Shown piece after piece: positions 18,375 through 33,720 of a DNA stretch of 64,000 nt. The stretch covers positions 248,001 to 312,000 of the forward strand of contig NZ_JAUTDN010000003.1 in the NCBI RefSeq assembly GCF_030646155.1, in the 5' to 3' direction. The translations under genes and the position numbers were made by a program. The stretch is from Conexibacter sp. CPCC 205762. GTDB taxonomy: Bacteria; Actinomycetota; Thermoleophilia; Solirubrobacterales; Solirubrobacteraceae. Within the stretch, counting starts at the first letter, position 1, and each line of letters begins with the position of its first letter. Below the pieces are notes generated by a model. It had not been told where the DNA came from and did not search any database. It saw only the letters and a program-made list of their open reading frames with translations.

Positions 18375-19808
18375 ATGTCGAGCAGAGCGGAGCCGGAGGA
18401 GCATCACTTCTCCTACGGCGTGCATGTCTGGCTGACGGCCGCCGTCGCCGCGATGGGCGGCATCTTGTTCGGCTACGACACCGGCATGATCTCGGGCGCG
18501 CAGCTCTACATCGAGCGCGAGTTCAACCTCTCCTCCGGCGAGATCGGCGTCGTCGTCTCGGCCGTCACCGCCGGCGCGCTCGTCGGCGCCTTCTTCTCGT
18601 CCTGGCTGACGGCGAGAATGTCGCGGCGGGGGATCGTGAAACTGGCGGCGGTCGTCTTCATAGCCGGCGCCGTGCTGGCAGCGGTCGCGCAGAGCCTCGC
18701 GGTGCTGATCGTCGCCCGCTTCATCATCGGCCTCGCGGTCGGCTTCGCCTCGACGGTCGTGCCGCTCTACATCTCCGAGGTCGTGCCGGCCGCCAGACGC
18801 GGCTCGATGGTCGCGCTGTTCCAGCTCGCGATCACCGCCGGCATCCTGCTCGCGTACATCGTCAACGCCGTCACGGCCGAGGAGTGGCGGATCGTCTTCG
18901 CGCTCGCCGCGGTGCCCGCGACGCTGCTGTTCCTCGGCATGCTGGTGCTGCCCAACAGCCCCCGCTGGCTGGTGATGAGAGGCGACGTCGACGGCGCCCG
19001 CGACGTCCTCCACGAGCTGCGTGACCCGAACGCGCCGGAGACCGAGGAGGAGCTGCAGGAGATCGTCGACGCGGTCGAGGAGGACCGCAGACGGCCGAAG
19101 GAGTCGATCGTCGCCGCCTTCTCCAGCCCGCTCGCGCGGACCGTGCTGGTGGTCGGCATCGGGCTCGGGATCTTCCAGCAGATCACCGGCATCAACACGA
19201 TCATCTACTACGCCCCGACGATCCTGAAGGAGGCCGACTTCGGCGACTCGGCCTCGACGCTGACGACCGCCGGCATCGGCACGCTCAACTTCGTCGCGAC
19301 GATCCTCGCGCTGCTGTTCGTCGACCGCATCGGCCGTCGCAAGATCCTCCTCGGCGGGATGGTCGGGATGGCGCTGACGATGGGCGTGATCGCGGTCGCC
19401 TTCGCCGTCGACGACTTCACCGGCGTCTGGAGATACCTGACCGTCTTCTGCCTCTTCGCCTTCATCGCCTGCTTCGCCGTCAGCTGGGGCTGGGGCTTCT
19501 GGGTGATGGCGTCGGAGATCTACCCGCTCTTCATCCGCGGCCAGGCGATCTCGATCGGCAACTCGGTCCAGTGGGGGGCGAACTTCGCGATCTCGCTGCT
19601 GTTCCCGGTGCTGCTGACCGCCTGGGGCGGCGGCCCCGTCTTCGGCATGCTCGCCGGCTTCGGCCTGCTGGCGATCTGGTTCACCTGGAAGCTCGTCCCC
19701 GAGACGCGCGGCAAGACGCTGGAGGAGATCGAGGACGAGTGGCGCCGCCGCGCCGGCGTCGAGGCCGGCGGCAGCGGCGGCCCGACGCCCGCGACGGCAG
19801 CCGGCTAG
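18375..19808 (+). CDS. MFS sugar porter (sugar/H+ symporter)
   Basis: A 477-residue 12-helix transporter of the sugar porter family, importing a monosaccharide with protons. Signatures seen are [14 protein letters not shown] in helix 1, [32 protein letters not shown] before the central loop, [17 protein letters not shown] in helix 7, DRIGRRK, and the C-terminal [12 protein letters not shown]. The ATG at 18375 follows a GGAGG at 18361-18365; an in-frame ATG at 18357 is possible but would leave this site inside the gene. It overlaps the convergent ABC ATPase gene by 4 nt. Confidence 0.92.
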
Positions 19809-20989
19809 GAGGCGGCGCTCAGCGCCGCCGCGGCGGTCTCGATCCGGAGGCCGTCGGCGCGGTCGAAGAAGTGCAGGCGGTCGCGGCGGATCGCCAGCTC
19901 GACCGGCTGGCCGACCGCGACCGGCGAGCCGGCCTCCAGGCGGGCGGTCAGCAGCGCGCGGTCGTCGCCGGTCAGCTGCGCGTCGCGCTCGCCGGTGAGG
20001 CCGCCGCGGCCGTCGAGGTCGAGCTGTCTCGCCTCGACGCCGAAGATCGCGTGGATCTCGGAGCCGAGCCGCTCGACGACCTCCGGCACGACGCGCAGCC
20101 GCGGCAGCGCCGGGTCGACGCCAGGGCCGGCGAGCAGGAAGTCGCTCGGGCGCACGCCGACGATCAGCTCGCGCTCGCCGAGCGCCCGCGCGACCGCCGG
20201 CTCCAGCGCCAGCGACTCGGCGCCGAAGCGGACGGCGCCGTCGGCCGCCTGCGCCTCCAGCAGGTTCATCGCGGGCGAGCCGATGAAGCCGGCGACGAAG
20301 GCGTTGGCCGGCCGCTCGAACAGCGTCTCGGGCGTGTCGCACTGCTGCAGCACGCCGCCGCGCAGGACCGCGACGCGCTGGCCGAGCGTCATCGCCTCGA
20401 CCTGGTCGTGCGTGACGTAGACGGTCGTCACGCCGAGCTGCTCGTGCAGCCGCGCCAGCTCCGCGCGCATCGCGACGCGCAGCTTCGCGTCGAGGTTGGA
20501 GAGCGGCTCGTCCATCAGGTACGCGGCCGGCTGGCGGACCATCGCGCGGCCCATCGCGACGCGCTGGCGCTGACCGCCGGAGAGCTGCGCCGGCTTGCGG
20601 TCGAGGTACTCGGTGAGGCCGAGCGAACGCGCGACGCGCTCGACTCTCTCGGCCATCTCCGCCTTCGCCGTCTTGCGCAGCTTGAGCCCGAAGCCGATGT
20701 TCTCGCGCACGGTCAGGTGCGGGTAGAGGGCGTAGTTCTGGAAGACCATCGCGACGTCGCGGTCGCGCGGCTCGAGGTCGGTCACGTCGCGCTCGCCGAT
20801 CGCGATCTCGCCGTAGGTGACGTCCTCCAGCCCGGCGATCATCCGCAGCAGCGTCGACTTGCCGCAGCCGGAGGGGCCGACGAGCACCATGAACTCGCCG
20901 TCGGCGATCTCCAGCTCGACGTCGTCGACGGCGAGCGCGCCGCTGCCGTCGTACTCCTTGCTCACTCCGGTCAGCTTGATCGCGGCCAT
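19805..20989 (-). CDS. ABC transporter ATP-binding protein (MalK/UgpC class)
   Basis: A 394-residue ATPase driving the importer encoded at 27344-30604. Walker [11 protein letters not shown]-loop FQNYALYPH, signature LSGGQRQR and Walker [15 protein letters not shown] are intact. The C-terminal third is the TOBE/regulatory domain seen in MalK/UgpC/MsmK ([12 protein letters not shown], then the [14 protein letters not shown] end). It is the last gene of the operon, 13 nt after the PLP-enzyme gene, with an AAGGAG ribosome site in the gap. Placement far from its permeases is unusual but the strand and spacing keep it in the unit. Confidence 0.93.
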
Positions 20990-21002
20990 CGGGCACTCCT
21001 TG

Positions 21003-32697: not shown

Positions 32698-32715
32698 CGC
32701 CCGCGACCCGCTCGG

Positions 32716-33720
32716 CTACGGCGTCACGTCGACCGCCGCGCCGGTCCGCGCCGACTCCAGCGCCGCCAGCGCGACCCGCAGGGCGCGGCGGCCGTCCTCG
32801 CCGCTGACGCTCGGGTCGCGCCGCTCGCGGATCGCGGCGGCGAACTCGCCCAGCTCCGCGCCGAGCCAGTCGTCGCGGCGCTGGCGCTGGTCGAAGGCGA
32901 AGCGGGCCGTCTGCGCCTCGATCGCCTGCCAGGTCTCGATCCGCACGTGCCCGTGCGTGCCCTGGATCGCCAGCTCGACGATCCCGTCGCCGTCGTAGCC
33001 GGTCACGAACGAGGCGGCCGAGGTGCCGACCGCGCCGTTGGCGAACGTCAGCGTGACGGCGGCGGCGACGTCGACCGCCGGCCCGTCGCCGACCGGCCGC
33101 TCGTGGACGCTCGCCTGCACCTGCACGACCGGGCTGCCGAGCAGCCACGCGAGGCGGTCGAAGCTGTGGTGCATCTGCAGCTGCACGACGCCGCCGCCTG
33201 CCGCCGGGTCCCAGTACCAGGCGGGTCCGGCGGGAGCGCTGTCGACGATCGTGTCGACGGCGAGCACGGGATCGCCCAGCTCGCCCGCGGCGAGCATCCG
33301 CTTCGCCGTCGCCAGCTCGACGTGGAAGCGATGGCTGAAGCCGACCATCAGCCGCACGTCGGCGCGCGCGGCGGCCGCGAGCACGCGGTCGGCGTCGGCG
33401 AGCGTCGTGCAGAGCGGCTTGTCGACGAGCAGGTGCAGCCCTGCCTCGGCGGCGGCGACCGCGGCGTCGGCGTGCAGGTGGTTGGGCAGGCCGACGTAGA
33501 GCGCATCGACCTCACCGCCCTCGACGAGCGCCTCCCAGGAGGCGTGCGCGGCGGCGCCGAAGCGCTCCGCGATGCGCGCGCGGCTGACCGGGTTGGCGTC
33601 CGCGACCGCCCGCACCTCGACGCCGTCGAGCGCCGCGGCGGCCGCCGCGATCCGCTCGCCCATGATCCCGCCGCCGGCGATTCCGAGCCGGATCAGCCCC
33701 GCATCAGCTGCTGCACCCAC
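32716..33720 (-). CDS. Gfo/Idh/MocA-family oxidoreductase
   Basis: A 334-residue NAD(P)-dependent dehydrogenase. The Rossmann motif IAGGGIMGERIA opens the protein, VGLPNHLHADAA and VDKPLCTT (the EKP-type catalytic lysine) follow near residues 80-100, and the C-terminal beta-sheet domain starts near residue 120. It probably oxidises a polyol, sugar or cyclitol hydroxyl. The GTG start lies 11 nt after a paired operator identical in layout to those of the ABC operon, so it is likely in the same regulon. It converges with the preceding PLP gene. Confidence 0.9.
   Translation of the reverse strand: MGAAADAGLIRLGIAGGGIMGERIAAAAAALDGVEVRAVADANPVSRARIAERFGAAAHASWEALVEGGEVDALYVGLPNHLHADAAVAAAEAGLHLLVDKPLCTTLADADRVLAAAARADVRLMVGFSHRFHVELATAKRMLAAGELGDPVLAVDTIVDSAPAGPAWYWDPAAGGGVVQLQMHHSFDRLAWLLGSPVVQVQASVHERPVGDGPAVDVAAAVTLTFANGAVGTSAASFVTGYDGDGIVELAIQGTHGHVRIETWQAIEAQTARFAFDQRQRRDDWLGAELGEFAAAIRERRDPSVSGEDGRRALRVALAALESARTGAAVDVTP

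Follow-up and report, generated by a model that had tools for sequence, protein, structure and literature searches.

The stretch of Conexibacter sp. CPCC 205762 DNA analysed here (64,000 nucleotides, hereafter the window; source assembly of 6.1 Mb in 116 contigs, 90.9% complete) contains a block of 14 genes at positions 19763-33794, the gene content of which supports an operon that breaks down an amino compound. Eleven of the genes form an operon on the minus strand, running from 30604 down to 19805 in the order substrate-binding protein (SBP), two permeases of an ATP-binding cassette (ABC) importer, phosphotriesterase-family (PTE) hydrolase, SelA-like pyridoxal 5'-phosphate (PLP) enzyme, short-chain dehydrogenase (SDR), amidohydrolase, RidA, IclR-family regulator, fold-III PLP enzyme related to D-threonine aldolase (DTA) and MalK-type ATPase. 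Nine of the ten adjacent pairs overlap, the overlap being exactly 4 bp in eight cases, and the members of the tenth pair are 13 bp apart; such packing agrees with the single transcription unit proposed in the original prediction. Open reading frames and family scans located all the genes named there, each with an open frame, so the inventory was correct for the genes it listed, but the IclR regulator (22106-22912) had been overlooked. On the divergent side, the genes of a metallo-β-lactamase (MBL)-fold protein and a fold-II PLP enzyme form a pair with a 4-bp overlap, followed by a gene encoding a Gfo/Idh/MocA dehydrogenase.

The block is one self-contained module, because the nearest relative lacks it in its entirety and has intact flanks. 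In this relative, G077 (here and below, G and L numbers denote genomes and loci), which is the closest in the genus judging by the neighbouring M48-family gene, the flanks are 83-91% identical and 19763-33794 has no counterpart. A PIN-domain-like gene, recognised by eye (L136:7351-7782), occupies the site of the missing block. Besides the source, the block is carried by C. arvalis DSM 23288 and G040, the orthologous loci being compared by tblastn; the SelA-like gene was found in three of seven Conexibacter genomes at E 1e-20, one of the other four being only 77% complete. The G040 locus (L019) has neither RidA nor the fold-II enzyme and keeps the rest, copies elsewhere in G040 not having been searched for, so that sequential action of the three PLP enzymes, as suggested earlier, is only a possibility.

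A 26-bp palindrome, CATACGTGAATCNNRRWTCNNGTAYG, is located upstream of both the SBP gene (30663-30688, plus strand) and the Gfo/Idh gene (33735-33760, plus strand). With up to three mismatches allowed, it has two matches in the whole assembly, both at this locus; the reversed palindrome, used as a control, has none in the same assembly, and 100 shuffles of the window gave a mean of 0.00 matches. The pattern was built from the two sites and their orthologues, so the real test is the lack of other copies. The promoter region between the SBP and MBL-fold genes, with its operator copy, is strongly conserved in three Conexibacter species; the copy preceding the Gfo/Idh gene is recognisable, by eye, in two species, and only a half-site can be discerned in C. 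arvalis. This private pair of sites is more than chance would give and upholds the suggested co-regulation of the operon and the nearby Gfo/Idh gene. The IclR-family protein encoded within the operon (PF01614, E 2.4e-45, and PF09339) probably controls the module through the common palindrome, the putative operator. Its nearest NCBIfam model is BhcR (186.6 bits, under the cut-off of 350), and the equivalog cut-offs of the β-hydroxyaspartate cycle are reached neither by this protein nor in the comparison with BhcC (222.2 of 690 bits).

The SelA-like fold-I PLP enzyme (25195-26403, minus strand) belongs to a long-insert subfamily, for which the literature and structure searches found no characterised member. 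In an alignment with DgaE, where the residue roles were taken from the accessible part of PMC9529869, the PLP lysine and the carboxylate arginine are kept, along with none of the two histidines and none of the three phosphate arginines; the aligned residues are S157/G158, and P328, D357 and T371 (around these three the alignment is weak, 21.8 bits). Compared with the D-glucosaminate-6-phosphate system DgaE/DgaF, as far as the consulted text of that paper describes it, the likeness thus consists of a SelA-like fold-I enzyme with these two retained residues, whereas the proton-donor histidines and phosphate-binding arginines are absent. The window enzyme further differs in carrying about 23-27 inserted residues that short-type relatives lack, and it is encoded alongside an ABC importer in a block that has no DgaF; the lack of a DgaF-type aldolase among the block genes had been noticed in the original prediction. 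The enzyme is proposed to be an ammonia-lyase acting on an unphosphorylated 2-amino-2-deoxyaldonate. According to the available text of the respective papers, the characterised close relatives DgaE (PMC9529869) and Cap15 (PMC6384614) both use sugar-derived β-hydroxy-amino acids. G040 contains a second long-insert SelA-like gene, 46-48% identical (L014:1468-2676 / L021:9709-10896), which adjoins, by eye, enolase-superfamily-like and DppA-type D-aminopeptidase-like genes.

The fold-III PLP enzyme (21003-22109, minus strand; PF01168 and PF14031) was aligned with the structures 3wqc, 4v15, 7dib, 3wqg and 4pb3. At the metal motif, formed by HxC or HxD residues, it reads NHIC, against SHVD in the D-threonine aldolases (4v15, 7dib) and NHAC in 3wqc, a D-threo-3-hydroxyaspartate dehydratase (DTHADH); the near-identical 3wqg (NHAA) and 4pb3 (NAAC) differ at one position each, as expected of active-site mutants. 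HxC is kept in six of seven homologues (L019, L020, L047, L099, L108 and L122), and L109 has HxD. The label 'D-threonine-aldolase-like' is therefore to be replaced, since the motif is the HxC of the DTHADH type and not HxD; judging from this motif, a dehydratase (ammonia-lyase) active on a D-3-hydroxy-amino acid is more likely than an aldolase.

The hydrolases include the PTE-family metal hydrolase (26400-27347, minus strand; PF02126, 243 bits), whose closest solved structure is 3k2g, followed by PHP (4lef, 1bf6), and which is proposed to be a lactonase of an amino-aldonolactone. By analogy with PTER, a PTE-family N-acetyltaurine hydrolase able to deacylate (PMC11374699, in the portion available), deacylation may be an alternative role. 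Orthologues with 55-66% identity directly adjoin SelA-like genes in L030, L033, L034 and L096. A survey of 395 further genomes sampled from the phylum gave none at E 1e-75; the two other block-bearing Conexibacter genomes gave no row in it, so they were presumably not part of the sample. The PTE-linked SelA sequences form no single clade (in a tree of 39 rows, with 10 of its 36 inner branches drawn open), so the PTE-SelA pairing is recurrent or has often been lost. The amidohydrolase (23280-24443, minus strand) is of the 'amidohydrolase/deacetylase' (EF_0837/cog3964) type, with a near full-length alignment to NF006689 (362 bits, just short of the cut-off of 371), and retains the metal-ligand stretches of 2ogj as read in the alignment; it is proposed to be an N-deacylase. 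Solved relatives of the EF_0837 type carry the labels dihydroorotase, adenine deaminase or amidase, of which we take the first two to be wrong.

The importer appears to be of the sugar type, although the matches of its substrate-binding lipoprotein, encoded by the first operon gene (29213-30604, minus strand), are weak: UgpB scored 28.3 bits, and the best PDB matches were a putative sugar-binding lipoprotein (33.4 bits) and then SmoF (32.6 bits). It is 86% identical to its counterpart in L019, 82% in L020 and 51% in L047 from Chloroflexi. Permease 1 (28270-29229, minus strand, TTG start) is of the UgpA type, with 144.1 bits against an unmet cut-off of 335; the putative permease 2 (27344-28273, minus strand) overlaps its neighbours by 4 bp; and the MalK/UgpC-type ATPase, encoded by the last operon gene (19805-20989, minus strand), exceeds the NF008653 cut-off of 432 with 454.6 bits.

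The SDR (24440-25198, minus strand; PF13561, with a YSASK motif read from the sequence) is possibly a sugar or keto-acid dehydrogenase; the best 25 of the 209 NCBIfam models matching it include glucose 1-dehydrogenase and are all under cut-off. The enamine/imine deaminase RidA (22909-23283, minus strand; PF01042, E 7.8e-29) represents the superfamily that also comprises RutC. The Gfo/Idh/MocA dehydrogenase (32716-33720, minus strand; PF01408 and PF22725), which has its own operator copy, scored 144.9 bits with iolG (cut-off 355). The fold-II PLP enzyme (31597-32697, plus strand), accessory and resembling D-cysteine desulfhydrase and CuyA, reached 257.7 of 450 bits with CuyA (NF052482) and 203.6 of 289.4 bits with ACC_deam_rel; cysteate catabolism, considered on account of the similarity to CuyA, was dropped because this score is under the cut-off and the gene is absent from one orthologous locus. 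The MBL-fold protein (30797-31600, plus strand) matched no Pfam or NCBIfam family and is weakly similar to AiiA lactonases (best phmmer E 1.3e-6). The canonical motif of MBL-fold lactonases is HxHxDH, whereas the degenerate metal site reads TQPVTYH in all three Conexibacter sequences, its position having been set by eye because phmmer aligned no more than the C-terminal half of the protein; the predicted structures of the three sequences are of low confidence (mean pLDDT 37.4). The protein may be a pseudo-enzyme or an altered-metal hydrolase adjoining the operon.

A scan of genome contigs gave 182 candidate SelA loci, the best 80 of which were compared with the window genes together with 8 others. 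Among these 88 loci, matches were found to Gfo/Idh at 14, PTE at 8, SDR at 7, the EF_0837-type amidohydrolase and DTA at 3 each and RidA at 2, C. arvalis contributing one to each count. Reading by eye within 7 kb of SelA indicated recurrent creatininase (9 loci), PTE (6), D-aminoacylase (5) and membrane dipeptidase (5) genes. A near-complete copy is present in L047, a Chloroflexi metagenome-assembled genome (MAG), with orthologous SBP and permeases, DTA, ACCD, SDR, SelA and a PTE-family gene (33%), and with a D-aminoacylase-like gene (by eye) at the position of the Conexibacter amidohydrolase. The PTE-SelA pair is accompanied by a D-aminoacylase-like amidohydrolase and Gfo/Idh in L096, and by large proteins and a BNR-repeat protein in L033 and L034. 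Three consecutive large proteins lie beside the pair in L033 (L033:1184-8955); the one that was scanned had GH20 domain 2 only, and they possibly represent an unrecognised hexosaminidase-like group. In L069, L083, L092 and L104, Gfo/Idh-creatininase-SelA adjoins PfkB and KDPG-aldolase-like genes (by eye; KDPG, 2-keto-3-deoxy-6-phosphogluconate); the gene order is common to all four, so they count as one instance. The short-type locus L026 combines a SelA-like gene with RidA, two D-aminoacylase-like amidohydrolases, a PfkB resembling 2-keto-3-deoxygluconate (KDG) kinase, a KDPG aldolase and IclR, and in Ochrobactrum L121 and Rhizobium L123 a short DgaE-like enzyme stands together with an amidohydrolase, RidA and IclR (both RidA genes, and the IclR gene of L123, by eye).

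Eleven haloarchaeal plasmid loci were read out of the 26 haloarchaeal rows among the 40 listed, and all are of the long-insert type. They contain annotated PIG-L deacetylase (5 loci), glycan lyase, heparinase or GH20 genes (5), RidA (4), FAH (4), enolase-superfamily or mannonate dehydratase genes (4), D-aminoacylase (3) and glucose 1-dehydrogenase (2); in L140 and L144, PIG-L, glucose 1-dehydrogenase, SelA-like and RidA genes occur all together. Where any theme recurs, these neighbourhoods can be read as hydrolytic release of an amino acid and then PLP-dependent elimination, often in a sugar context.

An N-acylated amino-sugar acid, one of the substrates named in the original prediction, is the candidate best backed by these neighbourhoods. 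We consider that there is an even chance that the block is a catabolic module for an N-acylated sugar-derived β-hydroxy-α-amino acid, the likeliest candidate being an N-acylated 2-amino-2-deoxy sugar or the corresponding aldonic acid. Also in favour of this reading are the behaviour of the block as one unit, the residue pattern of the SelA-like enzyme against DgaE, the substrates of DgaE and Cap15, and the ong precedent described below. The steps outlined here derive from family membership, residues and gene context. The ABC importer would take up the N-acylated substrate; if it enters as the free sugar, Gfo/Idh and/or the SDR would oxidise the sugar end to a lactone, which the PTE-family hydrolase would open. 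The EF_0837-type amidohydrolase would then strip the acyl group and the SelA-like enzyme would eliminate the β-hydroxyl, while the HxC fold-III dehydratase possibly performs the same elimination on another epimer or side product. RidA would hydrolyse the released enamine or imine, and the resulting 2-keto-3-deoxy acid would pass to a kinase and a KDPG-type aldolase encoded elsewhere, the breakdown as a whole being non-phosphorylated.

Several observations weigh against this amino-sugar pathway. At 54 of the best 80 SelA loci no other window gene is matched, many SelA neighbours are unrelated housekeeping clusters, and two of the eleven haloarchaeal loci (L018 and L143) show none of the counted partners. 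The loci L026, L121 and L123 are of the short DgaE-like type, outside the subfamily of the window enzyme, and the PTE-SelA pair of L030 is accompanied by a polar amino-acid-type importer (by eye), so a small amino acid fits better there than a sugar. The block genes include no KDG kinase or KDPG aldolase, and the assembly has no third operator copy; the downstream genes may lie outside the block, as the genome has five KDPG-aldolase-family genes, two of which adjoin PfkB-type matches, but no PfkB match in the genome reaches the cut-off for KDG kinase (400 bits; best score 145.8). The presence of two ammonia-lyase candidates in one operon is also unaccounted for. Finally, GH20 was found in none of the seven Conexibacter genomes and lytic polysaccharide monooxygenase (LPMO) in one, which does not carry the block; chitin was rejected as the source, since the three block-bearing genomes have neither gene, and it is no obvious source in Conexibacter. 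Near a KDPG-aldolase-family match in the source genome (L116, G000:C1 about 235958), creatininase-family and Gfo/Idh-like genes and a PTE-like C-terminus were noticed by eye.

The lack of a kinase and an aldolase would be natural if the block served to break down D-3-hydroxy-amino acids, either free or N-acylated (D-serine, D-threonine, D-allo-threonine or 3-hydroxyaspartate), where the amidohydrolase would deacylate, the HxC enzyme dehydrate and RidA clear the enamine, the keto acid needing no more enzymes. The HxC motif itself fits this reading, as do BhcR and BhcC, the nearest models of the regulator and the fold-III enzyme, though well under cut-off, and the S. meliloti pSymB cassette that groups a D-TA enzyme and an ABC importer of the amino-acid type with IclR and RidA. 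It would, however, make the PTE, SDR, Gfo/Idh and sugar-type importer superfluous, and in several haloarchaea the relatives of the SelA-like enzyme have sugar genes as neighbours; we regard it as unlikely. Still less probable is a mixed-substrate scavenging operon, in which unrelated amino-acid and lactone enzymes share their regulation but no chain of intermediates. It would suit the presence of three PLP enzymes with different folds and the fact that one of the three orthologous loci has neither RidA nor the fold-II enzyme, but the block is present or absent as a unit, has a private operator and recurs almost completely in the Chloroflexi MAG. It is very improbable that the SelA-like enzyme acts like Cap15, as an oxygen-dependent monooxygenase-decarboxylase converting a sugar-derived β-hydroxy-amino acid (GlyU carries a β-hydroxyl) into a carboxamide for hydrolysis by the PTE or amidohydrolase, since the fold resemblance is uninformative about the reaction and the RidA and KDPG-aldolase genes near some relatives point to elimination and not to oxygenation.

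A search of open-licence literature found no paper describing this exact gene set; the earlier statement that no such pathway is described was too strong, since related clusters exist. The best-described precedent for the proposed chemistry, by analogy, is the ong pathway of Pseudoalteromonas, an oxidative chitin/N-acetylglucosaminate pathway in which a D-aminoacylase-type deacetylase, a fold-III PLP deaminase and RidA lead from N-acetylglucosaminate to KDG, RidA being essential for growth in a role that is unknown (PMC9537276, in the part accessible). As far as that text goes, both systems have RidA and a fold-III PLP enzyme, a likeness of family and not of orthology with OngC; the ong deacetylase (GlcNAc1A) is of the D-aminoacylase type and that of the block of the EF_0837/NF006689 type. 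The block has none of the KdgK, hexosaminidase, TonB-dependent receptor and SSS transporter described for ong, and differs from it in having the ABC importer, PTE, SelA-like enzyme, SDR and Gfo/Idh, and IclR instead of RpiR. Haloarchaeal chitin clusters, for which an N-acetylglucosamine pathway has been predicted, resemble the block in uniting IclR, RutC and glucose dehydrogenase with a DgaE homologue; unlike the block, they contain chitinases and a CE14 deacetylase, their lyase substrate is assumed to be phosphorylated, and neither PTE nor an EF_0837-type amidohydrolase is mentioned in the portion of the paper available (PMC12343721). The S. meliloti pSymB cassette shares IclR, RidA and an HxC fold-III enzyme with an ABC importer, but the importer is of the amino-acid type and no SelA-like, PTE or amidohydrolase gene is annotated or matched there. 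A parallel with the E. coli yhf operon (PTE and PLP enzymes) was set aside, the literature having given nothing useful.

An MFS transporter gene bordering the block (18375-19808) was rejected as a member of the system: it is present in G077, which has no block, and nothing in the 20-kb locus of C. arvalis matches it. The GC content of the block (0.7327) nearly equals that of the window (0.7325), so base composition is uninformative on horizontal gain, and that line of argument was abandoned. Ordinary neighbours, recognised by eye, are an α/β-hydrolase peptidase-like gene (14809-16602) and a DUF1800/DUF1501-like pair (34825-37787).

Several parts of the block resemble amino-sugar enzymes known elsewhere. 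A wider proposal is put forward tentatively: the long-insert SelA-like subfamily would be a widespread uncharacterised class of PLP enzymes that break down unphosphorylated sugar-derived amino acids by chemistry other than that of DgaE, delivering an enamine to RidA or using catabolic oxygenation akin to that of Cap15, with the block in Conexibacter as a complete new pathway built on it. If the amino-sugar reading of the block is right, the block would offer one testable system for a PLP subfamily with relatives in Acidobacteria, Chloroflexota, Latescibacterota, Gemmatimonadota and haloarchaea, would hint at what a phosphotriesterase subgroup and EF_0837-type amidohydrolases do, and would mean that amino-sugar acids can be used without phosphorylation.

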